In this document: piece after piece, positions 20,038-52,261 of the stretch | How the letters are laid out: each line of letters begins with the position of its first letter | How positions within the stretch are numbered: position 1 is the first letter of the stretch | DNA from: Zobellia nedashkovskayae | GTDB taxonomy: Bacteria > Bacteroidota > Bacteroidia > Flavobacteriales > Flavobacteriaceae | Direction: 5' to 3' | DNA length: 64,000 nucleotides | Assembly: GCF_015330125.1 (NCBI RefSeq) | Contig: NZ_JADDXR010000002.1 | Span: 2,046,001-2,110,000 of the forward strand | Made by a program: the position numbers and the translations under genes | Notes under the pieces: model-generated | What the model saw: only the letters and a program-made list of their open reading frames with translations | The model's database searches: none | What the model was told of the DNA's origin: nothing

Positions 20038-22209
20038 ATGGCAGATAATGAATCCTCAGAAAAGAAGCGTAAGAAGTTATCAAGACGAAAATTTTTAGTC
20101 CGTGGTGGTTTTGGAACCTTAGGAGTACTTGCCGTAGGTACGTATTTATTCAGAAACCCTATTAGAAGAACCATCTTGAAGAAGGTGAATTCAATGGATA
20201 TAGAATACTTGGGCAGTACAGATAATCCTATGTTGTGGTTTGAACTTGGAAAGGATAATGTAGTTATTCTGCATTCTCCAAAAGTAGAAATGGGTCAGGG
20301 TACCTTTACGGGTATAGCCCAAATGGCTGCAGATGAATTAGATGTTCCGTTTGAGAATGTAAAAGTAGTTCATGCTACTACGGATACGGGCAATATTGAT
20401 CAATTTAGCACAGGGGGTAGTACTTCCATTTCTGGATTGTGGCAACCGCTTCGTGAATTAGCGGCAACCTTTCGTGAAATGATGAAGATTGAAGCTGCAA
20501 ATAAATTAGGAGTTTCCATTTCTCAGCTTTCGGTAAAAGATGGTGTTGTTTCTGCAAATGGCGAAAGCCTCACTTATGTCGAAATCTCAGAAGGAGTAAC
20601 CGACTGGACGATTCCTAAAAAACCAATTCTTAAGGACATTAGTAGTTATCGCTTTGTAGGAAAGCCATTGCCAAGAGTAGATTTAGCGGATAAAGTATAC
20701 GGCGCGCCCATGTTTGGGCTGGATGCTGAAATGCCTAATATGTTGTACGGGGCAGTAGTGAGGCCTTCAAAAATAGGGGCGAAGTTTATAAGTGCTACAA
20801 CGGATAAGGCCGAAAAAATGCCCGGAGTGGTGAAGGTTGTTAGTGAGGATGATTTTGTAGGTGTAGTTGCTGAATCTTATATGGAAGCGGAAAATGCCAA
20901 ACAGGCTATTGAGGTGGTATGGGAAACCCCAGACAATTTACAGCAAGATGAGATTGTAGCAATGATGACAGTGGGAAATGGTACCTCTAGCATAATTCAA
21001 AAACAAGGTGCTGCATTAGAAGGTGATGATAAGGTACAGATGGAATTTAGGAGTCCTATTGGTGCACACGCACAAATAGAACCTAACGGTGTTGTCGCTT
21101 ACGTTGAAGCATCTAAGGCTACTATTATGATATCTACTCAGGTAGTTGGTATAACCCGTAAGGAAGTTTCCTCCCGCTTAGGGTGGGATGTAGAAGAGGT
21201 GAATGTAATACCAACATATCTAGGCGGTGGTTTTGGAAGACGACTGCATACGCCACATGCCGTACAAGCGGCAGTAATGTCCAAAGCAGTTGGGAAACCG
21301 GTAAAATATATTTTTAGTAGGGAAGAAGAGTTTCAACATGATATGTTTCGCCCGCCAACCCATCATATTCTTAAAGGGAGTTTAAATGAAAAAGGACTGT
21401 TAAGCGGTCTTGAACACCATTTTGTGAGTGGTGATGTGGGTAATAATTCAGCATTGCTGCCAAATGTGGTTCCTACTATTTTAGGGGCAGATGTAGGTGC
21501 TATTAGAGGCGCATTTATTCAATATACGGGAGTACCTAATCATCGTTCGGTGTATTGGCATGTAGATTTGCCTTTTGCAACGAGTTGGTGGCGTAGTTTA
21601 GGCTTATTGGCTAATACCTTTGCAATTGAAAGCTTTGTTGATGAGATGGCTTTAAAAGCAGGTAAGGATGCTATTGAATTCCGTTTGGCACATGTTAATG
21701 ATGATGAGGCTGGGAAACGGTTAAAGGAGGTTATGCGTACGGCAGGTGAAAAAGCTGGGTATTCAGAGGAAGTTAAAAATGGGAGAGCAATGGGTTTTGC
21801 AGCTTCCGTAGATGCGGGAACACCATGTGCGCATGTAGTTGAGGTTTCTGTGGAGGATAATAATATACGCGTGCATAAAGTAACTGTGGTATTAGATCCT
21901 GGTTTGGCGGTAAACCCAGACCAAATAAGAGCGCAATGCGAAGGCTGTGTGATTATGGGAATGAGCGCGGTTCTTTTCGAACAAATGAAAGTAGTAGATG
22001 GTTCGTTAACACCAACTATTTATGGTCCTTATGAAATGGCTTTAATGAAACACGCTCCAAGAGAAATTGATGTGGTATTGTTGCAAGGTAAAGATACACC
22101 AGGTGCCGTTGGTGAACCACCATTGGGCCCAATAGGAGCTGCGATAGCCAATGCGGTACGCAGATTGACTGGGAAACGGCTGCAATCTATGCCATTAAAA
22201 TTGACCTAG
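20038..22209 (+). CDS. Molybdopterin-binding large subunit, isoquinoline-1-oxidoreductase type (IorB-like), Tat-exported
   Basis: 723 residues from the ATG at 20038, two bases after the small-subunit stop. A twin-arginine signal is clear (KKLSRRKFLVRGGFGTLGV; Arg16-Arg17), so the folded complex is exported to the periplasm. The fold is the two-part IorB form without an FAD domain. Landmarks are EMGQGTFTGIAQMAADEL, YLGGGFGRRLH and the C-terminal GAVGEPPLGP, whose Glu is the catalytic base of the family. Substrate is not decidable: aldehydes and N-heterocycles are typical. The last 78 nt have a diverged copy at 25707-25784, on the far side of three glycan genes, and no terminator follows the gene itself. 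Confidence 0.92.
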   Translation: MADNESSEKKRKKLSRRKFLVRGGFGTLGVLAVGTYLFRNPIRRTILKKVNSMDIEYLGSTDNPMLWFELGKDNVVILHSPKVEMGQGTFTGIAQMAADELDVPFENVKVVHATTDTGNIDQFSTGGSTSISGLWQPLRELAATFREMMKIEAANKLGVSISQLSVKDGVVSANGESLTYVEISEGVTDWTIPKKPILKDISSYRFVGKPLPRVDLADKVYGAPMFGLDAEMPNMLYGAVVRPSKIGAKFISATTDKAEKMPGVVKVVSEDDFVGVVAESYMEAENAKQAIEVVWETPDNLQQDEIVAMMTVGNGTSSIIQKQGAALEGDDKVQMEFRSPIGAHAQIEPNGVVAYVEASKATIMISTQVVGITRKEVSSRLGWDVEEVNVIPTYLGGGFGRRLHTPHAVQAAVMSKAVGKPVKYIFSREEEFQHDMFRPPTHHILKGSLNEKGLLSGLEHHFVSGDVGNNSALLPNVVPTILGADVGAIRGAFIQYTGVPNHRSVYWHVDLPFATSWWRSLGLLANTFAIESFVDEMALKAGKDAIEFRLAHVNDDEAGKRLKEVMRTAGEKAGYSEEVKNGRAMGFAASVDAGTPCAHVVEVSVEDNNIRVHKVTVVLDPGLAVNPDQIRAQCEGCVIMGMSAVLFEQMKVVDGSLTPTIYGPYEMALMKHAPREIDVVLLQGKDTPGAVGEPPLGPIGAAIANAVRRLTGKRLQSMPLKLT

Positions 22210-22313
22210 TTTAAATTTCTATCGTTTAAAGTTTTTAGAAGAGATTTTGTTAATTTTTAGAATGTTTAAACCCTATATTTCAAACTACAAAATTACAGGG
22301 AATTGTACGTATC

Positions 22314-23633
22314 ATGAAGCAGCTTGCCGAGAAACTCCGAAATAAAATCTTTTGGTCATTAGATGCTCTTAAAAGAGGTAAACTTATTGCGCATTATAGG
22401 GATATTGCCCAAATATTGGAAAATTATGATACGCCGGAGTCCCAGAAAAGAAGGGCGAATCTTCTAAAACAGCTTTTAAATCATGCTTCTGATACTACGG
22501 AGTTTTACAAAGAGTATAAAAACCTTGAGAATCTTGAGGATTTTCCTGTAATAGATAAGTGTATTATCCGGGACAATTTTGATGCTTTTCAGTCTATAGA
22601 ATACATAGATAAATCTAAACAGAAAGTTTCTACTAGTGGGTCTTCTGGCACTCCGTTCATGGTATATCAAAATAGCAATAAAGTAATCAGAAACCGAGCG
22701 GATACTATTTATCTTCAAGGCATAGTAGGCTTCAAGATTGGATATCGCCTGTACTATATCCGTCAATGGTTAGAAAAATATCGGTTGAATAACTTGACGC
22801 GAAGAATGCGCAATATAGAGATGGTCAACGTAGCGGATTTCTCTGATAATTATTTAGAAAAACTTATAACAACCCTAAGAAAAGATACCTCAACTAAGGT
22901 GCTTTTAAGTTATTCATCAGCCTTGCGGGAAATCTGCAATTATCTTGAGCGTGTAAGTGCAAAACCTATTGAAACTAATATTTCATCTATAATTGCCATG
23001 GCAGAAGGTTTAAGCGATGATACAAGAGACAAACTCATAAAGTATTTCAATACAAACGTGTACTTACGTTACTCGAACCAAGAAAATGGTATTTTATCAC
23101 TACAACTCTCTAAAATAAATAACAGTTTACAGATAAACTGGGCTAGCTATTTTATTGAAATTCTTCATCCTGAAAAAGATATTCCAGTGGAGTATGGGGA
23201 ATTGGGTAGGGTAGTGGTTACTGATTTATTCAACTATTGCACCCCTTTTATTCGATATGATACAGGTGATTTTGCCATAATGACCCAAGATGGTGGCTTC
23301 TTCAAAGGATCTCCTGTTTTTTTAAGGGTTGAGGGTAGGAAAATGGATATTATTTATAATACTCAAGGTCTTGTAATATCCGGTTACAACATTCATCACT
23401 TGGAATCGTATCCTGATATAAAACAATTTCAATTTGTTCAAGAAGACCGGGCAAAATATCGTATAAAGCTGGTGACAGAAAATCGTCTGAAAAGTGAAGA
23501 GATAATTATTAATCACTTCAAGACCTTTTTAGGAACTGATGCAAGCATAGAAATAGTTTATGTTGAAGAAATAAAACAGCTTGCATCTGGTAAAAGAAGA
23601 TTAATTATAAATAATTATCAAAAAGGTAACTGA
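22314..23633 (+). CDS. CapK-like phenylacetate-CoA-ligase-family adenylating protein
   Basis: 439 residues. The ATP-binding loop of the adenylate-forming superfamily is present (VSTSGSSGTPFMVYQN near residue 110), as are a second motif FIRYDTGDFA near 305 and the hinge-like C-terminal subdomain beginning VEGRKMDII. This is the PaaK/CapK group, whose members next to capsule genes are thought to activate acids for transfer to sugars rather than degrade phenylacetate. It is the first of three plus-strand genes (with a sugar transferase and an ATP-grasp ligase) that appear to form an inserted glycan cassette. Exact substrate unknown. Confidence 0.82.
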   Translation: MKQLAEKLRNKIFWSLDALKRGKLIAHYRDIAQILENYDTPESQKRRANLLKQLLNHASDTTEFYKEYKNLENLEDFPVIDKCIIRDNFDAFQSIEYIDKSKQKVSTSGSSGTPFMVYQNSNKVIRNRADTIYLQGIVGFKIGYRLYYIRQWLEKYRLNNLTRRMRNIEMVNVADFSDNYLEKLITTLRKDTSTKVLLSYSSALREICNYLERVSAKPIETNISSIIAMAEGLSDDTRDKLIKYFNTNVYLRYSNQENGILSLQLSKINNSLQINWASYFIEILHPEKDIPVEYGELGRVVVTDLFNYCTPFIRYDTGDFAIMTQDGGFFKGSPVFLRVEGRKMDIIYNTQGLVISGYNIHHLESYPDIKQFQFVQEDRAKYRIKLVTENRLKSEEIIINHFKTFLGTDASIEIVYVEEIKQLASGKRRLIINNYQKGN

Positions 23634-23720
23634 TGTAAAGAGTAATTTTTAATTGAAATGCGTTAATTTATTAAGAGTTAAGACGATAATTTTAAATGAT
23701 AATACCCATCCAATATAATA

Positions 23721-24350
23721 ATGTATAAAACCTTTATTAAACCCTTCTTCGACTTTTGCGTTGCTCTTACTGCGTTAGTTTTGCTTTCGCTAATCTTTAT
23801 TGTAATATATTGTATTTTAAAGTTTGGTAAGAATCAAGAGCCTTTGTTTTATCAACCCAGACCCGGAAAGAAGGAGGAGGTTTTCTATATAATTAAGTTT
23901 AAAACAATGTCAGATGAAAAAAACTTAAAGGGAGAACTTTTACCTGATGATAAAAGACTTACCCGTATAGGTGCATTAATGCGAAAAACATCGTTAGATG
24001 AAATTCCTCAACTCATAAATGTTCTAAAAGGAGATATGAGTTTGGTTGGGCCAAGACCCTTGCGAGTAAGGTATTTGCCTTATTATTCATCTAGAGAAAA
24101 TTTGAGGCATGATGTAAAACCTGGTATTACCGGTCTTGCCCAAGTTTCTGGTAGAAACGGCATATCTTGGGACCTTAGATTGGAACTTGATGCAGCGTAC
24201 ACAGAGAAAATGAGCTTTTTATTTGACTGTAAAATTCTTTTAAAGACTTTGGTCAAAGTTTTTGATAGTTCGGTTGTTGAATTTTCCGATGGGCCTGATA
24301 GTTTAGATGAGTATAGAAGTGATAAAGTAAAACATAGTTCTATAGAATAA
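23721..24350 (+). CDS. Membrane sugar-phosphate transferase (PglC/short WcaJ type)
   Basis: 209 residues. One N-terminal membrane segment (about residues 8-32) is followed by the catalytic domain of the bacterial sugar transferase family: KFKTM, RIGALMRKTSLDEIPQLINV with the catalytic Asp-Glu pair, MSLVGPRPL, and PGITGLAQVSGRNGISW. These monotopic enzymes load the first sugar phosphate on undecaprenyl phosphate. Length fits the minimal PglC-type core. The genome also encodes a longer family member at 52262-53617 for the main exopolysaccharide, so this copy probably starts a different glycan. Confidence 0.92.
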   Translation: MYKTFIKPFFDFCVALTALVLLSLIFIVIYCILKFGKNQEPLFYQPRPGKKEEVFYIIKFKTMSDEKNLKGELLPDDKRLTRIGALMRKTSLDEIPQLINVLKGDMSLVGPRPLRVRYLPYYSSRENLRHDVKPGITGLAQVSGRNGISWDLRLELDAAYTEKMSFLFDCKILLKTLVKVFDSSVVEFSDGPDSLDEYRSDKVKHSSIE

Positions 24351-24472
24351 TAGGGTGTAGACTATTTTTTTTGGCTTATTTTTTTTACAATAAATTTAGC
24401 TAAATATTTAATTTAGAAGGATTTAGTAATTGACGCTTTAGTAATAAAAATTTTTATTTTTTCACTCTTGTT

Positions 24473-24546
24473 TAATTTTGACGTAGTGTAGTATAATCTA
24501 GATTAATCAAACTCTTTTGGGGAATTCCATATACGGAAACATCCCC
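24473..24546 (+). promoter_or_regulatory. Promoter and structured leader of the ATP-grasp gene
   Basis: TAATTTTG at 24473-24480 matches the -7 consensus. It is followed by a perfect 12-nt palindrome TAATCTAGATTA (24494-24505) and by an imperfect hairpin (24519-24546) in which GGGGA pairs with TCCCC and TTCC with GGAA. The ATG lies 37 nt after the hairpin. The palindrome could be an operator and the hairpin an mRNA leader structure; no regulator is identifiable. The preceding gene may end in a weak terminator (AATAG / CTATT stem and T run, 24349-24372). Confidence 0.4.
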
Positions 24547-24582
24547 TTTATTCCCAAACTTCGTATTAAATAAAACTAGATT

Positions 24583-25626
24583 ATGAATATTTTATTTACC
24601 TGCGCTGGCAGAAGAAATTATTTGATAGATTATTTCAAAAAAGAAATTGGCGGCAATGGTAAAATTATCGTTGTAGATTCTGATTATACAGCCCCTGCGC
24701 TTGCTGCTGGCGATGTAGCAATTAAGATGCCATCTCTATATCACCCTGATTATTTGAGCGTTCTCAATAATGTCATAAGAGATTATAATGTTGATTTAGT
24801 TATTCCTCTAAACGATCTTGAGCTGCTTTTAATGTCCGAAAATAAAGAGCTCTTGGAAGCGCATAGGGCCAAGGTTGTTGTTTCCGAAGCAAACATTATA
24901 TCCTTCTGTGCGGACAAATGGCAAACTTATAATTTTTTCAAAGACTTGAGCATAAAGACACCTCTTTCGTTTCTAAAGATAGAGGATGTAGTGGAAGCCT
25001 TATCTAAGAAAATTTTGAGTTATCCAATTATATTAAAGCCTAGGTGGGGCTCTGGTTCTATAGGTATAGAGGAAGTCCGTAGTGAAGAAGAATTGTACTA
25101 TGCTTATAAGTTGCTTTTAATCAAAATTAAGAGGTCGGTTATAGCCAATATGCACGATGATGATTTTGTTGATACGATAATTTTTCAAGAAAAAATAGTT
25201 GGTCAAGAGTATGGTGTGGATATACTCAATGATTTCAATGGAAATTACTATAGCGCATTCGTAAGAAAAAAGTTGGCTATGCGTGCAGGAGAAACCGATA
25301 AGGCCATAACTGTCATAGATAATAAATTTTTAGAAATAGCCCAAAAATTGGGAGAGTCTACAAAGCATATTGGAATTATGGACTGTGATTTTTTTGTTGT
25401 GGATAATGAAATTTATTTCTTGGAAATGAACCCTAGGTTTGGTGGAGGATATCCCTTTTCGCACGAGGCCGGTGTAAACATACCTGCTATATACCTTGCA
25501 TGGTTGCGAGGTGATTTGGATATATCAAAATACATAGACTATAGACCAGGTTGTATATTTTCTAAATATGATAGGATTATTAAAGTCGTGGAACAAGAAA
25601 AACTCAATTCCTACCCTCCAGCGTAA
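24583..25626 (+). CDS. ATP-grasp carboxylate-amine ligase of a glycan cassette
   Basis: 347 residues. The N-terminus MNILFTCAGRRNYLIDYF is a Rossmann-like pre-ATP-grasp domain, followed by the ATP-grasp fold from about residue 110: YPIILKPRWGSGSIG supplies the ATP-binding lysine and glycine loop, and YFLEMNPRFGGGYP near 285 has the Glu and Asn that bind magnesium. Such carbamoyl-phosphate-synthase-like ligases in capsule loci are thought to couple amino acids or other amines to sugar acids. With the CapK-like and sugar transferase genes it forms a three-gene unit. The actual bond formed is not known. Confidence 0.85.
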   Translation: MNILFTCAGRRNYLIDYFKKEIGGNGKIIVVDSDYTAPALAAGDVAIKMPSLYHPDYLSVLNNVIRDYNVDLVIPLNDLELLLMSENKELLEAHRAKVVVSEANIISFCADKWQTYNFFKDLSIKTPLSFLKIEDVVEALSKKILSYPIILKPRWGSGSIGIEEVRSEEELYYAYKLLLIKIKRSVIANMHDDDFVDTIIFQEKIVGQEYGVDILNDFNGNYYSAFVRKKLAMRAGETDKAITVIDNKFLEIAQKLGESTKHIGIMDCDFFVVDNEIYFLEMNPRFGGGYPFSHEAGVNIPAIYLAWLRGDLDISKYIDYRPGCIFSKYDRIIKVVEQEKLNSYPPA

Positions 25627-25706
25627 AATAAAAAAATATTATTTATGCATCGTATAATGTAAGCTCTGCACATTTTACTCTTCCCCTATTTAATTTTTGA
25701 GATATT

Positions 25707-25784
25707 ATTGGAGCGGCAATTGCCAATGGCGTAAGAAGGTTGACCGGTAAACGCTTGCAATCTATGCCATTAAAATTGACCTGA
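25707..25784 (+). pseudogene. Remnant: second 3' end of the molybdenum hydroxylase large-subunit gene
   Basis: The 78 nt encode 25 codons plus a stop that match the last 25 residues of the gene ending at 22209 except for one Ala-to-Gly change. At DNA level 15 of 78 positions differ, nearly all silent, while a 27-nt run at the end is identical and the TTTAAA after the stop is shared. No coding continuation is found upstream. It is therefore an orphan gene tail with a separate evolutionary history, directly ahead of an intrinsic terminator. Confidence 0.88.
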
Positions 25785-25795: not shown

Positions 25796-25828
25796 AAAAA
25801 AAGGCTTCCAAGAAATTGGAAGCCTTTT
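25796..25828 (+). terminator. Strong intrinsic terminator after the orphan gene tail
   Basis: A perfect 13-bp stem (AAAAGGCTTCCAA / TTGGAAGCCTTTT) closes on a GAAA tetraloop, with A and T runs on both sides, so it can act in either direction. Its place just behind the orphan gene end suggests that it once terminated the cytochrome / molybdenum hydroxylase operon. Confidence 0.9.
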
Positions 25829-25834: not shown

Positions 25835-25852
25835 AGTGATGGCACTAGGATT
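25835..25852. repeat. 18-bp direct repeat of the tRNA-Arg 3' end (distal copy)
   Basis: The sequence AGTGATGGCACTAGGATT occurs here and again at 26008-26025, where it is the 3' acceptor and T-arm part of tRNA-Arg plus two flanking bases. Copies of a tRNA 3' end are what site-specific integration leaves behind. Only 155 nt separate the copies. Confidence 0.75.
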
Positions 25853-26007
25853 ACCTCTGGTTTTCCTAGGCGGCTCAATGTTGCAAATTATAAACCACGA
25901 GCTATCGCTCTGGTTCTTCGGTTTATTCCAAGATTACAAGACCGTTGGTCTTGCATCTTTCCATAAAACAAAGAACCACGCCAAAAGGGGCGTGGTTACT
26001 TATTTAA
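25853..26007. other. Hairpin-rich segment between the tRNA repeats
   Basis: No gene fits. Four inverted repeats fill the segment: 25845-25869 (CTAGGATTACC with GGTTTTCCTAG, two mismatches), 25893-25915 (AACCACGAGC with GCTCTGGTT, imperfect), 25937-25953 (CAAGACC GTT GGTCTTG, perfect) and 25974-25997 (AACCACGCC with GGCGTGGTT, perfect 9 bp). The last, read on the minus strand, is followed by a T-rich run and probably terminates the tRNA transcript. The others are unexplained. Confidence 0.6.
25962..25997 (-). terminator. Probable terminator of the tRNA-Arg transcript
   Basis: On the minus strand a perfect 9-bp stem AACCACGCC / GGCGTGGTT with a 6-nt loop is followed by CTTTGTTTT. It lies just behind the tRNA 3' end. 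Confidence 0.6.
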
Positions 26008-26009
26008 AG

Positions 26010-26083
<74 letters not shown>

Positions 26084-26647: not shown

Positions 26648-28210
26648 TTATGATATCTGTTCAATTTCTTGAAACGTTAATATATAGTGTGTACCGCTTT
26701 CGGTATTATCTTTTTCTATGTTTCCTTTTAGTTGCAATGTTAGCATGTGAATCAATTTTAGACCTAATGATTTGGTATTTCTAAAATCTATTTCATCAGA
26801 GAAACCGCTACCATTATCTCCTATGTACATTAAGAAATTTGGGTATTGTAATTTTTCAAACTTGACGGTAATTAGTCCTTCATCTATATTTTTGAATCCG
26901 TATTTTAAAGAATTTGTGATAATTTCATTCACCATGAGCCCAAGGGGCACGGAGGTATCCAGATTTAAATGAATTTCATCTGCCTCCACTTTTAAATCAA
27001 TTTTTTTATTCGTCCCTTTCATGGAAGAAATTAGGGTAGAAGCCAAGCGCCGTGCGTAGTCTCCATAGTTTATTTTACTTAAGTCTTTGGATTTATACAA
27101 CATCTCGTGAATGATGGCCATAGAGTTTATACGGTATTGGCTATATCTAAAAAGGCCTTTTATTTTATCGTCTTTTATAAAACTAGATTGTAAACTTAAG
27201 AGGCTTGTTATGACCTGTAAATTGTTTTTTACCCTATGATGTATTTCCTTTAAAAGAGTATTGCGTTCATTTAGTCTATCTCGTATAGTTTTGTTTAATG
27301 AATTTATATATTGATTTTTTTTATAGAGCGAATAAATAATACTCAGGAATAGCATAACCCCAATTGTAAGAATAACTGCAGTGCTATAGGTAGATGTTTT
27401 GTATTCTGTTAATTGATTCTGAATGGAAACAATATTAGGTTCTGTAAAGAGGGTCCAGTTTTGGTTACCTTCTAGACTTATCTTTCTTTGGTAGTAATGA
27501 GCATTGCCAAAACGGTCTTTTTTAGTAAGGTCAGTTTTAGATGGTGCGTATAGTTTTTCGTCTCCGCCACTGTAGAAAACCTCATTTTTGGAGTTTAGAA
27601 AAGTGGTTTTTTGTCCTTTGAAACTATCAAGCCAATTCTTGGCGTTTAGGTTAAGACCTACAACGCCTTGTAACACATTGTCAATATATATTGGAGTAAA
27701 AAAGCGTACGGTGGGTCTATGTGGTACCTCAACTTTGTCATGTTCAATGTTGAGATCCATATTGGAAACAAAAACATCGCCTTTGTTCAAGTGTAATGTT
27801 TTTATAAAATAATTTCTGTCTCCTTTATATTGATAAGTTTTAGCTACGGTACTGTCCTTGTTTTCCACTCGTATAACCTCCATGCCTCTTAAATCTATAT
27901 ACCTGGCTTGAAAATAATTAGGGTCGGCATTAAGGAAATAGGCTAGTTTTTTGTGAGTAATGGCTAGTGGGATGCCTGTTTTAAGGTCTAGTTCTATTAA
28001 ATCTCTAAGAAAGACTACATTTTTCTTGCTAATAGTATATAGCTCCAATAGGCGTGTTTCCGCATCTTTAAGTTTGTTCTTTTCGGTTATCTCCTCAACG
28101 AGGGTAATATTTTTATGGTAAAGTTTTATGCGTTGAACAGAGAGATTCCAAATAATCACACACGTAATCATGAAGAGTATAGTGGATGTGATTATTAGTT
28201 TTTTCCCCAT
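26648..28210 (-). CDS. Membrane sensor histidine kinase (HisKA_2 / HWE-like) with periplasmic Cache-type sensor
   Basis: 520 residues. Membrane helices at about 5-25 and 275-296 enclose a periplasmic domain of about 245 residues with the double-Cache look (a PTVRFFTPIYIDNVLQGVVGL segment near 167-185, typical of small-ligand sensors). The cytoplasmic part has the HisKA_2 dimerisation motif KEIHHRVKNNLQVI (phospho-acceptor His324 or His325) and an ATPase domain with NSLKYGFKN, GDNGSGFSDE and SLGLKLIHML. The gene is directly followed by a stand-alone receiver. The signal sensed is unknown. Confidence 0.92.
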   Translation of the reverse strand: MGKKLIITSTILFMITCVIIWNLSVQRIKLYHKNITLVEEITEKNKLKDAETRLLELYTISKKNVVFLRDLIELDLKTGIPLAITHKKLAYFLNADPNYFQARYIDLRGMEVIRVENKDSTVAKTYQYKGDRNYFIKTLHLNKGDVFVSNMDLNIEHDKVEVPHRPTVRFFTPIYIDNVLQGVVGLNLNAKNWLDSFKGQKTTFLNSKNEVFYSGGDEKLYAPSKTDLTKKDRFGNAHYYQRKISLEGNQNWTLFTEPNIVSIQNQLTEYKTSTYSTAVILTIGVMLFLSIIYSLYKKNQYINSLNKTIRDRLNERNTLLKEIHHRVKNNLQVITSLLSLQSSFIKDDKIKGLFRYSQYRINSMAIIHEMLYKSKDLSKINYGDYARRLASTLISSMKGTNKKIDLKVEADEIHLNLDTSVPLGLMVNEIITNSLKYGFKNIDEGLITVKFEKLQYPNFLMYIGDNGSGFSDEIDFRNTKSLGLKLIHMLTLQLKGNIEKDNTESGTHYILTFQEIEQIS

Positions 28211-28456
28211 TATGTATGCTGTTCTAAATAAAACCCCGATTTAAATATTTCGTAAGTCTAAAATTCTCCTTAAAGTGAAAGGATAGCTTTAAATTTAATC
28301 TAAAATCCTAGAAAGGATAGTTTAAGATATGTTAAATTTGTAGTATTATTATTACAAAAACAAATAATTCTGTAAGTTTTATTACAATAAAATATCATTG
28401 TTTGTATTCAATACACGGAAAGGGAAATAATAAAGTACTTACTTTAACGCTTGGGA

Positions 28457-30568
28457 TTACTCATCGTTAATTAAGATTTCTAGAACGAGAATGGCAGCCT
28501 CGGTAATCTTTGTACCTGGGCCAAATACAGCAATTGCGCCACTTTTAAACAAAAAAGGATAGTCTTGCTTTGGGATAACACCTCCTACTACGACCATAAT
28601 ATCATCACGACCATATTTCTTTAACTCTGAGATAACTTCGGGCACTAGCGTTTTATGGCCCCCAGCCAAAGAGGAAACTCCAAGAACGTGCACATCGTTC
28701 TCTACAGCTTGTTTAGCTACTTCTGCGGGAGTTTGGAAAAGTGGTCCTATATCAACATCAAAACCTAGATCGGCATAGCCTGTAGCAATAACTTTGGCGC
28801 CTCGGTCATGCCCGTCTTGTCCCATTTTAGCAATTAGAATACGGGGTCGTCTCCCATCTAATTCTGCAAATTGGTCTGAAAGCCTACATGCCTTCTTAAA
28901 ACTTTCGTCTTCTTTTATTTCTTTTGAATACACCCCTGAAATGGATTGAATGTTTGCTTTGTACCTGCCAAAGACAATCTCTAAGGCACTACTGATTTCT
29001 CCCAGAGTAGCCCTATGTCTTGCAGCTTCTACTGCTAAAGCTAATAAATTTTCATCTGAAGGAGATGGTTTAGCTGTGGTGTCCTTTGATGCTACCATTT
29101 TTTGATGGGCTGCATCGGTAAGTTTACTAAGAGCTTCTGCTACCTTCTTGGAATCACGATTTTGTTTTATTGTCGCTAGACGCTCCAACTGCTTTTTACG
29201 TACGGCATTATTATCTACTTCTAGGATTTGAAGGCCATCATCTTCTTCTGTCTGATATTTATTCACACCTACAACGGTATCTTGGCAGCTATCTATTCTA
29301 GCCTGTTTTTTTGCTGCCGTTTCTTCAATTCGTAATTTGGGTATACCAGCTTCTATAGCTTTGGTCATACCTCCCATTTCCTCAACTTCCTCTATAAGTT
29401 TCCATGCTTTATGAGTAAGGTTTTCTGTTAGCTTTTCCACATAAAAACTACCGGCCCAAGGGTCTACTGTTTTGGTGACTTTTGTTTCTTCTTTGAGGAA
29501 TAATTGCGTGTTTCTGGCTATCCGTGCAGAAAAGTCTGTGGGTAACGCTATGGCTTCATCTAATGCGTTTGTGTGTAAACTTTGAGTTCCACCCAGTACG
29601 GCAGAAAGTGCTTCTATGGTTGTACGTGCCACATTATTGAACGGGTCTTGTGCAGTAAGGCTCCAGCCACTAGTCTGACAATGCGTACGGAGGGACATTG
29701 ATTTCTTATTCTTTGGATTAAATTGCTTGACCAACTTGGCCCATAAAAGGCGACCAGCACGTAGTTTGGCAATTTCTGTAAAGTGATTCATGCCAATACC
29801 CCAAAAGAAAGAAAGACGTGGCGCAAAGCTATCAATATCAAGTCCGGCTTTTAAACCAGTTCTAATATATTCAAGTCCGTCTGCCAAGGTATACGCCAGT
29901 TCTAGTTCTGCCGAAGCACCCGCTTCGTGCATGTGATAACCAGATATGCTAATACTGTTGAATTTTGGCATGTGTTTACTGGTATATCTAAAAATATCGG
30001 AAATGATATCCATGGAAGGCGCAGGAGGGTAGATATAGGTGTTACGCACCATAAACTCTTTTAGAATATCATTCTGAATGGTTCCAGTCAATTCTTTAAG
30101 CGATACGTCCTGTTCTTCTGCAGCAACAATATAAAACGCCATAATAGGGAGTACCGCTCCGTTCATGGTCATAGAAACGGACATTTTATCCAGAGGAATT
30201 TCATCAAAAAGAATTTTCATGTCCTCTACAGAATCTATAGCCACACCGGCCTTGCCTACATCGCCTGGTACTCGTTCATGGTCACTATCATAACCACGGT
30301 GTGTTGGTAGGTCAAAAGCAATAGAGAGACCTTTTTGGCCTCCTTTTAAGTTTCTTCGGTAAAAAGCATTACTCTCTTCAGCAGTAGAAAACCCCGCATA
30401 TTGGCGTATGGTCCATGGGCGCTGCACATACATAGTGCTGTAAGGCCCACGTAAAAACGGAGGTATCCCAGCAGCAAAATTCAGGTGTTCTAAATCCGTT
30501 TTGCCTTGTTCGGCAATTGATTTATCTGCCGTTTTCTTAAAGGAAATATGTTGAATGTCGTTTCTCAT
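28457..30568 (-). CDS. mutB: Methylmalonyl-CoA mutase large (catalytic) subunit
   Basis: 703 residues from the ATG at 30568, 29 nt behind the small-subunit stop; the TTG at 30613 would overlap that gene. The substrate-binding barrel is recognisable ([30 protein letters not shown]), and the C-terminal cobalamin domain has the base-off motif DGHDRG (Asp585, His587, Gly590) plus GVSSLAGGH. The enzyme interconverts succinyl-CoA and (R)-methylmalonyl-CoA with adenosylcobalamin, linking propionate, branched-chain amino acids and the TCA cycle. It works as a heterodimer with the upstream gene product. Confidence 0.97.
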
Positions 30569-35323: not shown

Positions 35324-36340
35324 TTATTTAATAGTTTTAAACTTTTTTTGTATTAATTCTTTAGAAAGTGCTTTTCCAACTATGTCATGTGCTGTGTTGT
35401 TCCAATGCCCCTCTTTGCCGCTAATTTTCCAAAAGTTTGGGTCTATGTAATTTTGTCTAATAGAATCAAGTATAGGTTCTAAATCAATTATTGTTGAATT
35501 TTTAATACACTCCTGTACAACTGCTTTCTTTTTAGGTTCTAAATCAAGTAAAAAAACAATTTTTTGTTTCTTATCTATTTCTTTAATAATATCTCTGTCC
35601 AATTCGGTCAATGAAGAAGGTTGGGATTTTTGAACTTCATTTTTTTGAAAAATGTCATATAATTTTCCGAAGACGATGGGCGCGGCATTTTGTAATTGGT
35701 TTTTAACACGATACATTAAAAAGGTCAATGAGGAATGAGCCAATCCTACGCTTTCTAACGTTCGATAAATTTTATATTTTGATGAATTTTTAAAACTTGT
35801 GTTAAGAACAAATTTATCCTGTTTTTTTTCATAAAAGGGCACCATTCTGTTAAGGCCTTCAAAACTTCTTTCATTTAATAAAACTAGGTTGTAGTCAAGT
35901 TTGTAGTCGTTTTCAACTTCATTTACTAGGTATAATAGTTCTGATGTTGGTAAGGCCTCTTTTCCAAAATTGAAAACGGCAACAGATGGCTCAAGAGAGT
36001 TGTTGAGATTTTCCTCTAATTTGGTCACGAAATTGTTTCTTTCGAAAACTTGCCTAGCTGCAACAAAACTATTTCCGATTACGCCAATGTTGATGTCTTG
36101 TCTAGTATTTTTATTACATTCTTTACCATACCACCCTAAGCTGTTTGTTTTGGCAAGTCCAAAACCTTCAGTTGTAAAAAGAGAATTAGTAGTTTTATTT
36201 GCAACGTATCGTTCTCCTTTTTCTTTATCCACGGAAATGCTTGGCACTGTAATAGCAGCAGATGAAAGAAAAATTTCCATAAAAAATGAGAAAGTTATAA
36301 AGGCCAGGAAGAAAAAGATAATAGATTTAATTTTTTTCAT
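35324..36340 (-). CDS. SGNH/GDSL-like membrane-anchored protein, partner of the adjacent MBOAT
   Basis: 338 residues with one N-terminal membrane segment (about 5-27). A GDSL-like first block, NIGVIGNSFVAARQV near residue 85, and a late block, SGKEGHWNNTAHDIVGKAL with the Trp-Asn-His context near 310, are the ends of an SGNH hydrolase/transferase catalytic set. It begins 10 nt after the MBOAT gene. Pairs of this kind (as AlgI with AlgX/AlgJ) move acetyl groups across the membrane and place them on polysaccharides. It is the last gene of the operon. Confidence 0.72.
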   Translation of the reverse strand: MKKIKSIIFFFLAFITFSFFMEIFLSSAAITVPSISVDKEKGERYVANKTTNSLFTTEGFGLAKTNSLGWYGKECNKNTRQDINIGVIGNSFVAARQVFERNNFVTKLEENLNNSLEPSVAVFNFGKEALPTSELLYLVNEVENDYKLDYNLVLLNERSFEGLNRMVPFYEKKQDKFVLNTSFKNSSKYKIYRTLESVGLAHSSLTFLMYRVKNQLQNAAPIVFGKLYDIFQKNEVQKSQPSSLTELDRDIIKEIDKKQKIVFLLDLEPKKKAVVQECIKNSTIIDLEPILDSIRQNYIDPNFWKISGKEGHWNNTAHDIVGKALSKELIQKKFKTIK

Positions 36341-36350
36341 AGTGGTGTTA

Positions 36351-37769
36351 TTAAAAAGAAAAATAGATGAACGGAGATGATTCAGCTTGAAACATATAGG
36401 CCAAAGTGAGTGCGAACATAGCGGTTAATAGCCCGTATTTAACCCCCTTATTTTGAAATATAGGAAGATTGTAATATGCTTTGTAGCTAGTTAAATCAAT
36501 AAGTAGTACGACCACCAGATATGATACAGTTACTCTTAAAAAGAATAATGAATATTCACTAGCCCTCCAATCGATTACTCTTTCTATAAATAATATGGTG
36601 TTATCCCATGAAGTAGATCTAAAGAAGAGCCATGTAAACAAAACCAGAATATAGGTTACAAGTATGTTTAAAATTGTTTTAAGGTTAAATAGCGCACTAT
36701 CAGTGCTATCTATCTTGCGGTCTTTTAGAAACATTTTATGAATGGCCAAATAGATACCGTGCAAACCGCCCCATATTACAAAATTCCAACTTGCTCCATG
36801 CCATAGACCGCCCAGAAGCATGGTTAGCATAAGATTAATATAGGTTCTTTGGTCTCCTTTTCTATTGCCTCCTAAAGAAATATACAAATAATCCTTTAAC
36901 CAAGATGAGAGAGAAATATGCCATCTTCTCCAGAATTCAGTAATGTTTCTTGATAGATATGGCTGACTGAAATTTACCATTAATTCTACACCTAACAGTT
37001 TAGCCGTACCTCTGGCTATTAGACTGTAACCTGAGAAATCAGCATAAATTTGAACTGAAAAAAGAACAAGACCAGATAATAATTCTATTGAGTTATACAA
37101 ATGGATATTGCCAAATATTTGATCCACATATTTACCTGATGTATCACCAATTATTACTTTGCGGAATAGACCGGTTATAATTAAAACTATTCCTTCTTGA
37201 ATTTGAACTTTTGTAGGCGCTAATTTTTTGGATAATTGCGGTAGTAATACACTTGCTCTTTCAATAGGTCCGGCAACTAATTGAGGGAAAAAAGAGACGA
37301 AGAGCGCGAAATCAATAAAATTTTCTGAGGGCTTTAATTTTTTTCTATAAATATCTATAGAATATGATAGGGTTTGGAATGTATAGAAAGATATACCTAC
37401 CGGTAAAATAATATTTAAATGTAAATAATCAACACTGAGACCAATGACAGATGATAATTCAATAAAGCTTGCGGTAAAAAAATTAAAATACTTGAAAAAA
37501 CCAAGAATACCTAAGTTGGCAATAAGGCTTACCATCAATAGACGTTTTCGCTGTGACTCTTCTTCGGCCGCATAGAGGGCTTTGCCAACAATAAAGTCAA
37601 TTATGGAGGAAAGTAATAGTAGGCCTAAAAAGCGCCAATCCCAGTACCCATAGAAGAAATAACTAGCAGCTAATAGAAAAATGTTTTTAGCCTTTTTAGA
37701 GGGTAAAACATAAGTTAAAGGCACTACAACCCCTAGAAATATGAAAAATATGAAAGAATTAAAAAGCAT
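36351..37769 (-). CDS. MBOAT-family membrane O-acyltransferase (first copy)
   Basis: 472 residues from the ATG at 37769; the longer frame starts with a TTG two codons before. It has about ten membrane helices and the AlgI/DltB-type signature: LPVGISFYTFQTLSYSIDIY, PQLVAGPIERASVLLPQ, FWRRWHISLSSWLKDYLYI and GLWHGASWNFVIWG with the catalytic histidine. These proteins pass acyl, usually acetyl, groups through the inner membrane to an outside transferase. The SGNH-like gene that follows at 10 nt is the probable partner. Confidence 0.93.
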   Translation of the reverse strand: MLFNSFIFFIFLGVVVPLTYVLPSKKAKNIFLLAASYFFYGYWDWRFLGLLLLSSIIDFIVGKALYAAEEESQRKRLLMVSLIANLGILGFFKYFNFFTASFIELSSVIGLSVDYLHLNIILPVGISFYTFQTLSYSIDIYRKKLKPSENFIDFALFVSFFPQLVAGPIERASVLLPQLSKKLAPTKVQIQEGIVLIITGLFRKVIIGDTSGKYVDQIFGNIHLYNSIELLSGLVLFSVQIYADFSGYSLIARGTAKLLGVELMVNFSQPYLSRNITEFWRRWHISLSSWLKDYLYISLGGNRKGDQRTYINLMLTMLLGGLWHGASWNFVIWGGLHGIYLAIHKMFLKDRKIDSTDSALFNLKTILNILVTYILVLFTWLFFRSTSWDNTILFIERVIDWRASEYSLFFLRVTVSYLVVVLLIDLTSYKAYYNLPIFQNKGVKYGLLTAMFALTLAYMFQAESSPFIYFSF

Positions 37770-37859
37770 AATCAAAAATTAATTAAAGTTATAGTCGAAG
37801 CAATAACACGGTAAAAGTTATTGATCTATTTATGCCATGATGTAAATTGCGGCTGTTAA

Positions 37860-39095
37860 TTAGTTCTCATAATATTTTTCAGTAAACACTTTTATTCTAC
37901 GTTCCCATTTACTGTTCATAGCGTGAGCATGGGCATTACGAGCCTTTTCTCTGCGAAGCTCTGGGTTAGACTGAAATTCTATTATTGCGTTTGCAATATT
38001 CTTAGCTGTGCCATCTCCTGATGTAGGATTTATTTTTAAGGAACAACTTTCAGGTACTAGATTACGGGCCCCACTTATATTTAATACAATTAAGGGCAGG
38101 CTGTAGGCCATTGCCTCCATAATTTGAGTGCCTGAAGTATCTCTCAATGAACAGAAAAGCATTATATCTGCTTTTTTATATTGATTTGCTACCTCTTCAA
38201 AGGGTATTTGACCTAGAACATCAATTTTTGAAGTGTCTAAAGCATATTCTTTTATCCAGCTTTTGATTAGATCTTCGCTCTTGCCACCACCTACAATTGT
38301 TAATTTATAGGGTATATCGTTAGGTACAAATGACAACGCATGTAATGATAGATTAAGGCCTTTCCTCGGCATAACTCTTCCCACCCAAATAATATTTAGC
38401 ACTTCATGATCGGGTTTTTCTATATATGGTAATGTGTTGTATTTTTTTGGTATAGCATAGATTTCTGTTAATCGGCTCTTATTTGAATTTGCCAATTTAG
38501 AATTATCTAGAAGATCCTTTGTTTCTTGGTTGGTATTGATAATATAGCTTGCTTTTTTCAGAGTTCTTCTAAGACTACCACTGTAACCAACTAAAATTTT
38601 GGAAACCATTCCTCTAATGACTTCTGTACGCCATGATTTTCCGAAATATGATTTAAAAATAGGTAGTGCCATTTGACCACCACCTACAGGGCCAAATATT
38701 ATTTTACAGTTGTCGAGCTTATAAAGACAGGTGCCTTGTTGAAAACTACCGTAGGTGGCGTGATGAGCTATGTCAAAACTATGTTCGGCATGCAATTTCA
38801 CAGCTCGGTTTGCTGCTTTTCTTTTCCAAAGATAATAATGTAAATAAATTGTTTTACCATTAGGGTCAAACAGTTTTTCGTCCAAGCCCCACGGTAATTC
38901 AACAAATTCAAAATGAAGGTTGGGTAGATTCAATTTTTTATGTTCATTCTCAATTTTCTGTTTGTCATCAAAGTTGGTCATACAGTGTACTGTATAGCCC
39001 ATTTCGGCAAGACCTATCGCCCAATTCCATCCTCGGCCTTCTTCAGAGCCTTTAGAAGGGGAGCAGGCATAGGCACTTAGTAAAACTTTTTTCAT
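37860..39095 (-). CDS. GT4-family glycosyltransferase
   Basis: 411 residues with the GT-B fold. The opening KKVLLSAYACSPSKGSEEG followed by GWNWA is characteristic of one GT4 group. The donor-binding half has NIIWVGRVMPRKGLNL near residue 230 and the late ADIMLFCSLRDTSGTQIMEAM segment with the family Glu. It should add one sugar to the lipid-linked repeat unit in the cytosol. Sugar and linkage are not inferable. It sits between the flippase and an MBOAT gene in the operon. Confidence 0.92.
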   Translation of the reverse strand: MKKVLLSAYACSPSKGSEEGRGWNWAIGLAEMGYTVHCMTNFDDKQKIENEHKKLNLPNLHFEFVELPWGLDEKLFDPNGKTIYLHYYLWKRKAANRAVKLHAEHSFDIAHHATYGSFQQGTCLYKLDNCKIIFGPVGGGQMALPIFKSYFGKSWRTEVIRGMVSKILVGYSGSLRRTLKKASYIINTNQETKDLLDNSKLANSNKSRLTEIYAIPKKYNTLPYIEKPDHEVLNIIWVGRVMPRKGLNLSLHALSFVPNDIPYKLTIVGGGKSEDLIKSWIKEYALDTSKIDVLGQIPFEEVANQYKKADIMLFCSLRDTSGTQIMEAMAYSLPLIVLNISGARNLVPESCSLKINPTSGDGTAKNIANAIIEFQSNPELRREKARNAHAHAMNSKWERRIKVFTEKYYEN

Positions 39096-39202
39096 AGTTG
39101 AATTTTTAATGATATCCTAAATACAATAGATCTAAGATTATGGTCGTTTGCTAAGCCTTAGTAAGATATAATTCAAGGTCATTTTATTAGAAAGTCTTGT
39201 TG

Positions 39203-40645
39203 TTAAAATTTTAAGTTATGCTTTGTTTTAAAAAATATAACCATTACTAGTAAACCGATAACAATCCAAAATAATGGGAAAAGAATAACATCATTAATTT
39301 TAGTTTGCAAAAACATATATAAGCATACCGTAATTAGCGTTATAAGTAGATAACCAATAATGTGCGGAAGACCTACAATTTTATTTTTAAGTAATACAAC
39401 ATCTTGGGAGATGTGAAAAATAATAAATGAAATGAATATCGCATAGTTGACTATAGATAGCGATTTTATAAAATATAACCCGATAAGACAAATTGCAGAG
39501 TTAATTAGCACACTATTGATGTTAAACCACATATCTAGTTTTTCTAGCTTCATGGCAATTAGCATATTAGCCTGTAATAGAGATGTTGGAAACACCAAAA
39601 TAGTAAAAAACATTTCTTTGGTATATTGAGCAGATTCCGCATATTTTTCACCAAATATCCAAGGCACCAATTCGTCTGCGAAGGAATAGGTAAAAGTGAA
39701 TGCACCAAGCCCATATAACATGAGAATTCTAAATATTTTTTTATAAACAGCTTGTAATTCGGTCTTGTCTGGTTTTTGATGAAGCTCTACCAGCTTTGGA
39801 AGCATAGTACTGCTTAGTACTACAGGCACAAGTTGAGCTAATGAAAATATCTTAAAAGAGTTTTCATAATGAGCTACATCTTCTAAAGGAAGTATTTTGG
39901 AAATAATCAACGTATCGATTTTCCAGTAAATAACATAAGCACTGCCTATAACGGCAAAAGGCCAATATTTAGAGAGAATGCCCTTTATATAGCTAAATGG
40001 TATTTCTTCACGCCAAAAACCTGTTAAAGTAAAACCTTCCGCAGCACCAATGCGCAAAAATAGATTTAACGTGATAAAACGCGTAATTACAAGTAATACG
40101 GCCAAATAGATAATCGAAAAAGGGTATACAAAAAGCAAACAGGCGATAACAAATTTTGAGAATGCCTCAATAGAGAGTACAAGTACGGTTTTCTTTTGAG
40201 AGAATTGGGCAATGTTTACATTTTTTATCGAATAGATAATATTGTCAAAAATAATATTAGCAGCGAAAAGTAACGAAAGTATGCGAACGGTTGAATCTGT
40301 GTATAAAAAAAATGCTAGTATGAGGTTTACTGAAAAAAAGAATATACCAAAATAAGCTTGCATTTTCAGGAATTTGGCCGCTAATTTGTTCTTGTCACTA
40401 TGATTGATTACCTCTCTGATGAACCAATGACCAAGACCCATAGAGGAAAAGGCCACAATCATTTGGTAGAGGCTATTGGCAATAATATACTTGGCAAAAT
40501 CATCAACGGAATAATGCCTGGCGATTAAAACGTAAAATAGACTTAAAAATACGTTTTGAAATAAACTACCTGCTAACCCCCAAAAACTATTTTTTAGAAC
40601 TTTAGATTCAAGTTTGCTTTTAAGCTTGGTTATACTATTTAACAT
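39203..40645 (-). CDS. Wzx-like oligosaccharide flippase (MATE/PST superfamily)
   Basis: 480 residues from the ATG at 40645, preferred over a TTG 24 nt earlier. About 12-14 hydrophobic helices run through the protein. The N-terminus (SFWGLAGSLFQNVFLSLFYV, ARHYSVDDFAKYIIAN) is the typical first-helix region of polysaccharide-biosynthesis flippases. It should turn undecaprenyl-linked repeat units to the periplasmic face for polymerisation by the Wzy-like protein encoded upstream. It is the only flippase gene in the operon. Confidence 0.9.
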   Translation of the reverse strand: MLNSITKLKSKLESKVLKNSFWGLAGSLFQNVFLSLFYVLIARHYSVDDFAKYIIANSLYQMIVAFSSMGLGHWFIREVINHSDKNKLAAKFLKMQAYFGIFFFSVNLILAFFLYTDSTVRILSLLFAANIIFDNIIYSIKNVNIAQFSQKKTVLVLSIEAFSKFVIACLLFVYPFSIIYLAVLLVITRFITLNLFLRIGAAEGFTLTGFWREEIPFSYIKGILSKYWPFAVIGSAYVIYWKIDTLIISKILPLEDVAHYENSFKIFSLAQLVPVVLSSTMLPKLVELHQKPDKTELQAVYKKIFRILMLYGLGAFTFTYSFADELVPWIFGEKYAESAQYTKEMFFTILVFPTSLLQANMLIAMKLEKLDMWFNINSVLINSAICLIGLYFIKSLSIVNYAIFISFIIFHISQDVVLLKNKIVGLPHIIGYLLITLITVCLYMFLQTKINDVILFPLFWIVIGLLVMVIFFKTKHNLKF

Positions 40646-40673
40646 GGGGTAGATAAATTTAAATGTCAAGTCG

Positions 40674-41783
40674 TTAATTAGATACTGTGGCTTTAATGAA
40701 ATCTTGGTGCATTTGTTCGGTAATTTTTCTTTTTGTAAAATTCTGACCTAGAACAAGATTGTTTTTGCGCATTTTGTTTCTCAATTCGTCACTTTCGTAA
40801 ATCATAGTTAAAGCCTTCTTAACACTCTGAGAATCTTTTCCGTTAACCCAAAGGCAATTATCTGGTTCTTTCAAATGGTCAATGGCTGCCCTTGTCTGAG
40901 TAGTAATTACAGGAAGACCACAGCCGATTGATTTAAACAATGCCATAGGGAAACCTTCATCAAAATAGGTTGGAAAAACCAAGGCATCCGAATTGGCATA
41001 AAAATGATCACACTCTTCTTCGGGTAAAAAACCGGTGAGGTGCACGTATTTTTCAATTTGTAAGCTTTTAATTTCTGCTTTAAACTCATCATATTCTTCA
41101 CCGTTACCAGCAAAAATAAAAACACAGTCTTCTTTATATTTAAAATGAGGGATGGCCCGTATAATACTAAAAATGCCCTTTTCTGCAATCATACGCCCGG
41201 CAAAGAAAAATTTGAAACGGTTATCATTTAACCCGTGCGCCGATAAAAATGCTTCTGATTTAATGGAACGATTTGGGTCGATAATATTACCAGTAACATA
41301 GGCCTTCTCCGCAAATTTTGGAGCTAATTTTGCAATATTGTTTTTTTCTTCATGGGAAAGAAAAAACCAAAGAGTAACTTGTTTCGATAGATAGGGAATA
41401 ACCAATGAATCAAAAAAGAAAGATTTTTTAGTCAGAATAGACAAATCAGACCCATGAGTCTTAATAGCAATATTTAACTTATGCCAATAGAGTAATCTAA
41501 TCAATAATATAGTGATAAAGTCGCGTGTGGTCCCTACTGGTTCAAAACGCGAATTTAAATAAATCATATTCGGCTTAAAGTTATATAATCGTTTCACAAG
41601 TGCAAAAGCATTTGCTAAGACTCCCAGTAGCTTATCAATTTTACCGGCAAAGGGTTTGTTCCGTGTATAAACGATAGTATCACAGTCGTAGCCTAAATCG
41701 GTGAGTCCTTGCACCTCGTCCATTGCCAGGTTTATGTGATTTTTTGGAGGAATACCAATTAGAATCTTAGTTTTCATTTTCAT
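40674..41783 (-). CDS. GT4-family glycosyltransferase
   Basis: 369 residues from the ATG at 41783 (another ATG at 41777); the frame could be read longer from a TTG at 41831, but that is unlikely. GT-B fold with the donor site FFFAGRMIAEKGIFSII near residue 200, HLTGFLPEEECDHFY near 255 and VFPTYFDEGFPMALFKSIGC near 280, which has the E-x7-E-like motif. It contributes one glycosidic bond to the repeat unit. The 108-nt gap before it from the acyltransferase gene is one of the largest in the operon, but no separate promoter was found. Confidence 0.92.
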   Translation of the reverse strand: MKMKTKILIGIPPKNHINLAMDEVQGLTDLGYDCDTIVYTRNKPFAGKIDKLLGVLANAFALVKRLYNFKPNMIYLNSRFEPVGTTRDFITILLIRLLYWHKLNIAIKTHGSDLSILTKKSFFFDSLVIPYLSKQVTLWFFLSHEEKNNIAKLAPKFAEKAYVTGNIIDPNRSIKSEAFLSAHGLNDNRFKFFFAGRMIAEKGIFSIIRAIPHFKYKEDCVFIFAGNGEEYDEFKAEIKSLQIEKYVHLTGFLPEEECDHFYANSDALVFPTYFDEGFPMALFKSIGCGLPVITTQTRAAIDHLKEPDNCLWVNGKDSQSVKKALTMIYESDELRNKMRKNNLVLGQNFTKRKITEQMHQDFIKATVSN

Positions 41784-41891
41784 TTTTTGTTTTAAAAGAT
41801 TTTGAACGAAACTGTTTAATATTGCCCTCAATCTTAAGTGTTCTTATTAAAAGAACTTAATCATATTTTTTAAACTCAATGTTTAAATTTC

Positions 41892-42851: not shown

Positions 42852-42893
42852 GATAGACTATCTTAGTTTTATAAGCTTGGTCAAGTTGTAGGA

Positions 42894-43868: not shown

Positions 43869-43917
43869 AACCACTGATTCGATTGAAGTTAAGGTTCCTA
43901 ATTTTACGGCTTTTTTG

Positions 43918-44403: not shown

Positions 44404-44424
44404 TATATCAATAAATTTTTATTG

Positions 44425-45339: not shown

Positions 45340-45343
45340 ACGA

Positions 45344-46765: not shown

Positions 46766-46795
46766 ATCTACTGGAATTTTTTTATTGTAATACAA

Positions 46796-48115: not shown

Positions 48116-48131
48116 AATAAGCGTCTTATTG

Positions 48132-50537: not shown

Positions 50538-50582
50538 CCTTAAAATTTCTTTTTCGTAAACGTTGGATTTAACCTTTAAGTT

Positions 50583-51341: not shown

Positions 51342-51364
51342 GGGGGAATTTTAATGTTGGTGTA

Positions 51365-52186: not shown

Positions 52187-52261
52187 TTTTATTTGTTTAG
52201 TTAGTGTTATTTCTATGTATTTTGTTGTAATAGTTGTGTTTAAGGACGGCTAAGATACTCA

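Follow-up and report, generated by a model that had tools for sequence, protein, structure and literature searches.

Duplicated and apparently reciprocally recombined ends of a molybdenum hydroxylase gene flank a small surface-glycan cassette in a Zobellia genome

How do three genes predicted to act in surface-glycan synthesis come to stand between a complete molybdenum hydroxylase gene and a second copy of that gene's own end? This arrangement lies in a stretch of 64,000 nucleotides (nt; the whole stretch is hereafter the window), positions 2046001-2110000 of contig 2 of a Zobellia genome (G000). The gene order is hydroxylase, CapK/PaaK-like gene, PglC-type gene, ATP-grasp gene, orphan gene tail, terminator stem, a 173-nt unit and tRNA-Arg. 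An initial annotation made from the sequence had noticed the recurring gene end and read it as a sign that the cassette is moved by homologous recombination via a conserved gene tail. We propose instead that the trio probably entered as, or as part of, a circular DNA with its own version of the hydroxylase gene's final ~78 nt, and that this circle integrated by one reciprocal crossover in the tail.

The recurrence itself was correctly located in the initial annotation. The two copies (22132-22209 and 25707-25784) differ at 15 of 78 nt, namely tail nt 3, 9, 12, 15, 23, 24, 28, 30, 33, 39, 42, 48, 49, 77 and 78, and encode 25 residues with a single difference (A to G). In a search of the whole genome the second copy was recovered at E = 2.6e-17 and no third copy at E <= 0.001; with two copies and such a genome-wide score, a chance match, named beforehand as one outcome that would undo the reading, is rejected. 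The 27-nt run of identity noted earlier exists and is the longest between the tails, but it covers tail nt 50-76 rather than the very end: the stop codons are unlike (TAG and TGA), and TTTAAA beyond the stop is common to both. The mostly silent differences point to a functional gene of another lineage and not to decay, which supports the earlier suggestion of a related strain's gene end. Among 27 Bacteroidota hydroxylase loci (L088-L114), L108 had no usable tail, the tail of L111 was mostly X and L090 offered just 821 nt behind the gene; none of the others showed a convincing second tail, the best and chance-like match having E = 0.002 and 34% identity.

The locus was compared with eight other Zobellia genomes. 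The nearest were Z. barbeyronii KMM 6746 (G003), the closest relative among those compared, Z. uliginosa C3R17 (G006), Z. amurskyensis (G004), Z. russellii (G007) and a genome deposited as Z. uliginosa DSM 2061 (G008); the set was completed by G001, G002 and G005, the last of which we take to be Z. galactanivorans. The features on which the argument turns are the following.

20038..22209, + strand: complete large-subunit gene of a molybdenum hydroxylase in the xanthine dehydrogenase family (PF02738/PF20256)
22132..22209, + strand: intact tail; nt 1-23 equal Z. barbeyronii at every site distinguishing the tails, nt 24-78 differ from it at 13/55 (other allele)
25707..25784, + strand: orphan tail; nt 1-23 other allele (6/23 differ from Z. 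barbeyronii), nt 24-78 resident allele (3/55 differ)
22147..22153 (intact copy) and 25722..25728 (orphan copy), + strand: GCCAATG, a 7-nt block in both tails (tail nt 16-22)
25799..25828, no strand assigned: terminator stem of 13 pairs after the resident gene end (terminator scan and comparison with Z. barbeyronii)

Of the 15 sites that tell the tails apart, Z. barbeyronii shares the first five with the intact tail and the remaining ten with the orphan tail, and one switch fits all of them (15/15); by our own arithmetic, a 5-then-10 single switch has a chance of 2/3003 under random order. At tail nt 21, 25, 51 and 63 both copies are alike and Z. barbeyronii differs. Its differences from the intact gene rise from 17/300 before the switch to 13/55 after it (p = 0.00012), while those from the orphan copy fall from seven in nt 1-26 to two in nt 27-143 (117 nt; p = 9e-5). 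Orphan-tail nt 64-143, which comprise the gene's final 15 nt plus 65 nt beyond, terminator included, equal Z. barbeyronii without a difference. A maximum chi-square analysis of the window against Z. barbeyronii placed the break at tail nt 20, a value reached by 22 of 2000 permutations; among the 15 genome pairs so analysed, fewer than 50/2000 were obtained solely for this pair and for Z. amurskyensis against Z. russellii (0). Because agreement with Z. barbeyronii passes from the intact tail to the orphan tail after five sites, a Z. barbeyronii-like resident tail and an incoming tail ~19% different have swapped partners at one point. With the Z. barbeyronii tail taken as resident, the copies behave as attL/attR-like reciprocal hybrids around one core, the switch falling at tail nt 16-24. 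Such reciprocal recombinants are the signature of one crossover integrating a circle with its own gene end, or of the reverse excision in Z. barbeyronii.

Relatives lacking the cassette had been predicted to hold a single tail followed by the terminator and tRNA-Arg, and two such empty sites were found. In Z. barbeyronii the single tail leads into TTTAAAGACATAAAAAAAGGCTTCC..., which in the window stands behind the orphan tail, and then into the tRNA; in Z. uliginosa C3R17 the single tail precedes a terminator, one repeat unit and the tRNA. Close relatives all carrying the trio and both tails, which would have spoken against an insertion, were not encountered: the cassette is absent from all eight other Zobellia genomes, the weaker matches there being other sugar transferase genes and terminators. 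The terminator had also been placed beside the distal tail, and it is present there; from the intact hydroxylase stop codon to the next gene, the scan gives no terminator on the + strand. The stem itself spans 25799-25828, and the scan assigns it to the minus strand.

Taken together in one scheme, a circle carrying the trio and its own version of the tail would derive from another Zobellia-like lineage, and a single reciprocal crossover in or beside GCCAATG would join it to the chromosome. The chromosomal hydroxylase gene would thereby retain its resident 5' part, gain the incoming last ~55 nt and remain whole, and the final ~55 nt of the resident copy, together with the terminator, would end up 3.6 kb farther downstream, preceded by a ~23-nt stub from the incoming tail. 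The closest sequence to incoming nt 24-78 is that of Z. uliginosa C3R17 (8/55 differ), a stretch too short to assign a species. We prefer gain in the window genome over loss in Z. barbeyronii because a single event is needed and because P0204, a protein 99% identical to the hydroxylase, has Lys at the tail residue coded CGC here; as far as protein evidence goes, this Lys is three base changes from the window's tail and one from the resident type, i.e., near the resident and far from the incoming tail.

Where the crossover fell bears on the kind of recombination. The switch lies in or beside GCCAATG, outside the 27-nt run of identity, and the incoming homology extends only 15 nt to the left of this block and then ends, like an att arm. 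Homologous recombination would be expected in the 27-nt run or in the 2 kb of gene leftward, not at or next to a 7-nt block with mismatches on either side. A cassette moving habitually by homologous recombination via the tail is thus not borne out, given this position and the presence of the cassette in one genome only among those examined. The hydroxylase genes of Z. amurskyensis and Z. russellii part at the same point, with 34/300 differences before it and 18/55 after (p = 0.00023), in a step that is the largest along their gene, tied with its neighbour; a single difference occurs in nt -23 to 23 and 18 in nt 24 to 77, and the fourteen preceding 100-nt windows are 81-92% alike. Behind the Z. 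russellii tail the usual terminator is missing and a Fic-type gene follows. Because of the switch position, the short incoming arm and this second parting at the same point, we lean towards a site-specific event, its recombinase since lost or acting from elsewhere.

Several observations weigh against this reading. For Z. amurskyensis and Z. russellii the best break in the permutation test falls at tail nt 62 and not at 23, and Z. russellii has another terminator-like hairpin behind its tail. None of the three insert genes is a recombinase, and no match to PF00589, the tyrosine integrase family (E <= 1e-5; serine recombinases were not searched), occurs within 130 kb of the hydroxylase gene in the nine Zobellia genomes, as far as contigs extend (in Z. 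amurskyensis the gene is at a contig end); the nearest, a fragment in G008, is 139 kb away. The window genome as a whole encodes three PF00589 proteins. The tail region found no match in viral contigs, phages or plasmids. Taken literally, the 15 sites place the switch between nt 23 and nt 24, which are neighbouring mismatches, and a crossover within GCCAATG requires that orphan nt 23, part of a functionless fragment, mutated later (the crossover then being in nt 16-23). This nucleotide is G in the orphan tail and C in all six relatives compared, and it is the sole replacement change; leaving it out, 14/14 sites fit (4 then 10). Because divergence from Z. barbeyronii is uneven along the whole gene (the middle ~80% identical), the terminal step alone is unexceptional: 373/2115 segments of 55 nt are equally divergent and the step ranks 182/2060. 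The tail of Z. uliginosa C3R17 is likewise more divergent from that of G001 (13/55 versus 32/300, p = 0.014), yet both keep the terminator. Finally, the polarity depends on one sister genome, and the circular form is our inference from the hybrid tails.

Phage or plasmid carriage was considered and set aside: like the tail, the CapK-like protein had no match in plasmids (E <= 1e-40) or viral contigs, and a degenerate tail pattern had none in viral contigs, although absence from those collections is weak evidence.

Of the other explanations, homologous recombination with linear DNA, for instance after natural uptake, survives best and still seems unlikely to us. The donor would already have had the trio standing between the gene and an orphan tail, and two crossovers, one per tail, would have brought the segment in. 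Exchange through flanking genes is the usual route by which polysaccharide loci change, and the locus is a mosaic in which the hydroxylase middle (~80%) and most of a histidine kinase gene (~58-89% per 100-nt window) are less Z. barbeyronii-like than their surroundings. Against this, two independent crossovers would have to strike the same few tail bases despite 2 kb of homology leftward, which a crossover with a circle does by necessity, and the origin of the duplication would merely be shifted to the donor. The initial annotation had invoked recombination with DNA of a related strain: the gene end of another lineage stands, and because all 15 sites (15/15) make the tails reciprocal hybrids about a single switch, a single crossover with a circle (or its reversal in Z. 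barbeyronii) is a better account than plain linear exchange.

Reverse polarity we hold to be somewhat less probable again. Here the common ancestor with Z. barbeyronii would have had the trio between two unlike tails, and Z. barbeyronii would have lost the trio by recombination between them, leaving a hybrid. The identical 15/15 pattern is then explained, and Z. barbeyronii is also without the neighbouring 173-nt unit present in the window genome, Z. uliginosa C3R17 and others, so deletions may occur there. This course requires an insertion plus a loss, the insertion needing an illegitimate right end; the P0204 tail is apparently not of the intact type, on protein evidence, and Z. uliginosa C3R17 is empty too. 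Tandem duplication of the gene end in place, with decay of the second copy, accounts for the similarity itself and no more. It is rejected as highly improbable, since relatives have empty sites and the tails switch reciprocally, the differences being moreover mostly silent and in two blocks and the terminator lying with the distal copy.

Integration of a circle by one crossover in the tail can be extended, much more tentatively, to a general proposal. The hydroxylase 3' end might be a standing Zobellia integration site for small recombinase-free cassettes, each with a spare tail and mobilised in trans. The GCCAATG core would then have been used twice independently, once by the glycan trio and once in Z. 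russellii, where a swapped tail stands before the Fic-type gene; we consider this doubtful.

Whatever the route, the spacer between hydroxylase and tRNA-Arg is a variable site in Zobellia, being empty or holding a Fic gene, an exopolysaccharide locus or the trio. Its right part in the window consists of two features.

25835..26007, - strand: 173-nt unit with copies of the tRNA 3' end at both borders; copy number varies across Zobellia
26009..26083, - strand: tRNA-Arg (TCT), right border of the variable spacer

In the six linked relatives the spacer is geneless (G003, G006) or holds Fic (G001, G007) or exopolysaccharide genes (G002, G004). The G001 gene is a Fic/DUF4172 gene by Pfam, and its 372-aa homologue in G007 was identified by eye. 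In G002 the spacer measures ~17 kb, most of it an exopolysaccharide locus that includes NusG-like, WecG, EpsG and Wzz/Wzc-type genes (L034:6513-19001, L055:1-4391); in G004, over a contig break, it contains glycosyltransferase-like genes (by eye) and a Wzc-type gene (L056:7465-14000). The tRNA side had no match in the 18-19 kb around the hydroxylase homologues of G005 and G008. In G005 (L037:13190-13654) just the last ~156 residues of the hydroxylase homologue match, at 74%, and a full-length Z. galactanivorans protein, P0224, exists. A 32-nt tRNA-Arg 3' fragment stands immediately before the Fic/DUF4172 insert of G001 (L033:6517-7961), resembling an att scar at the tRNA, and an apparent remnant of this insert was seen by eye in G002.

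The 173-nt unit, which sits between terminator and tRNA-Arg, belongs to a set of units of 173-180 nt beside tRNA-Arg(TCT), each opening with the tRNA's final ~18 nt in copy (window 25835-26083; L055:4392-4985; L033:6242-8214; L038:7042-7297; L057:9375-9834). Exact 17-nt copies, the tRNA's own included, number four in G002, three in G001, two each in the window, G004 and G006, and one in G003; the single exact copy of G007 is in a unit, the tRNA's own copy being divergent. The tRNA and unit together fold much better than shuffled sequences (z = -7). The units are reminiscent of the 178-bp repeats of E. coli tyrT, on which no relevant literature was found.

The families named in the initial annotation for the three open reading frames are supported by profile and structure matches.

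22314..23633, + strand: CapK/PaaK-like adenylate-forming protein, 439 aa (precomputed domain PF27533)
23721..24350, + strand: PglC-type sugar-1-phosphate transferase, 209 aa (PF02397, E 2.8e-58)
24583..25626, + strand: ATP-grasp ligase (PRK12767-type, carbamoyl-phosphate-synthase-like), 347 aa (NF009404, 382.4 bits, cut-off 316)

The first had no Pfam match in the library used for the domain search; the second matches 8e37, an N,N'-diacetylbacillosaminyl-1-phosphate transferase (E 1.5e-60), and the third 2pn1 (E 1.9e-43). To judge from these families, surface-polysaccharide synthesis may gain from the trio a transferase for the initiating sugar phosphate, a ligase and an enzyme that activates acyl groups or amino acids. 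Genes of these types are grouped in other polysaccharide loci as well. In 13 of the 20 genomes having both, the window's own included, a CapK-like gene (E <= 1e-30) and an ATP-grasp gene (E <= 1e-80) are less than 5 kb apart (counted by eye; 299 genomes searched per protein). All three genes are adjacent in two of 11 regions inspected in other genomes, Pareuzebyella sediminis (G219), in the order seen here, and Pricia sp. S334 (G110); a twelfth region was the window genome's own CapK-like paralogue. Because a Z. laminariae protein with a changed C-terminus (P0012) shows 95% identity across 80% of the query, and seven more proteins on short contigs (P0002-P0008) are 95-100% identical, the CapK-like gene seems to circulate in Zobellia or close kin. 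GC content is 34-35% in the trio, 42% in the hydroxylase gene and 36% on average in the window; as a mark of foreignness it is not diagnostic, the neighbouring regulator genes having 33%. Within the 230-nt leader of the ATP-grasp gene a GGGGAATTCC...GGAA...CCCC stem was spotted by eye (window 24500-24580), and it has no Rfam match at the gathering threshold. About 10 kb beyond the trio lies the main exopolysaccharide locus (window 35324-53617, minus strand), with two MBOAT genes, glycosyltransferases, a flippase, Wzy, a Wzc-type gene, WecG and a full-length sugar transferase.

The hydroxylase reading frame is whole (the open reading frame list gives 724 aa from GTG 20035; the domain-search query started one codon past the ATG at 20038), and the protein has 85-90% amino acid identity to six Zobellia orthologues. 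Identity to Z. barbeyronii is mostly 58-89% per 100 nt at window 20040-21540 and ~26900-28500 and mostly >84% in the stretches around them; to judge from these alignments, the hydroxylase middle and the histidine kinase gene look recombination-replaced in one of the two lineages, the window's or that of Z. barbeyronii. Farther off, a long array of ~120-nt units (55415-56943), in which codons for Glu and Pro abound, lies inside the open reading frame 55069-57855.

No paper on the hydroxylase-tail and trio locus was found in our literature search, and the main text on the Z. amurskyensis and Z. laminariae genomes (PMC6950322) mentions no islands, tRNA, recombination, capsules, horizontal transfer or exopolysaccharide. 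The locus offers a base-level record of a small surface-glycan gene set entering a genome with the neighbouring gene unbroken, and it marks the interval from hydroxylase to tRNA-Arg as a variable site at which Zobellia species differ in exopolysaccharide and Fic genes. Repeated use of the 7-nt core, if true, would point to a trans-acting recombinase moving cargo without mobility genes, which annotation would overlook.

Three known systems invite comparison. Surface-polysaccharide loci are exchanged via flanking housekeeping genes, e.g., gnd beside O-antigen loci. Here too, variable polysaccharide genes stand beside a conserved gene with an exchanged end, and G002 and G004 hold larger exopolysaccharide sets in the same spacer; such exchange, however, swaps locus for locus without a second tail, whereas the tail here is duplicated and reciprocally hybrid. 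Genomic islands associated with tRNA genes are a recognised class, and the right border of the spacer is a tRNA-Arg with extra copies of its 3' end, the 32-nt tRNA fragment before the Fic insert of G001 being of the same kind; the cassette, in contrast, used the hydroxylase tail and not the tRNA. The closest likeness is to the e14 prophage, which integrates in E. coli icd (Hill et al. 1989, as cited in PMC6379469 and PMC11148124) and, according to PMC11148124, has a 165-bp duplicated gene end, 12 nt and two conservative residues different, and its own integrase, intE. Both elements sit in the 3' end of a metabolic gene, whose reading frame is completed by the incoming DNA, and the old end persists as a fragment on the far side; in both the differences are silent with few conservative residue changes (165 bp, 12 nt and two residues in e14; 78 nt, 15 nt and one residue here). 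The window shares with that system a gene end restored by incoming sequence (the last 55 nt are not of the resident type), a displaced end on the far side and empty sites in relatives. The two part in that e14 is a prophage with intE and the 3.6 kb insert here holds three glycan genes and no recombinase. The locus is thus a well-resolved integration scar of a known kind, the e14/icd kind, unusual in being without a recombinase and in its cargo.

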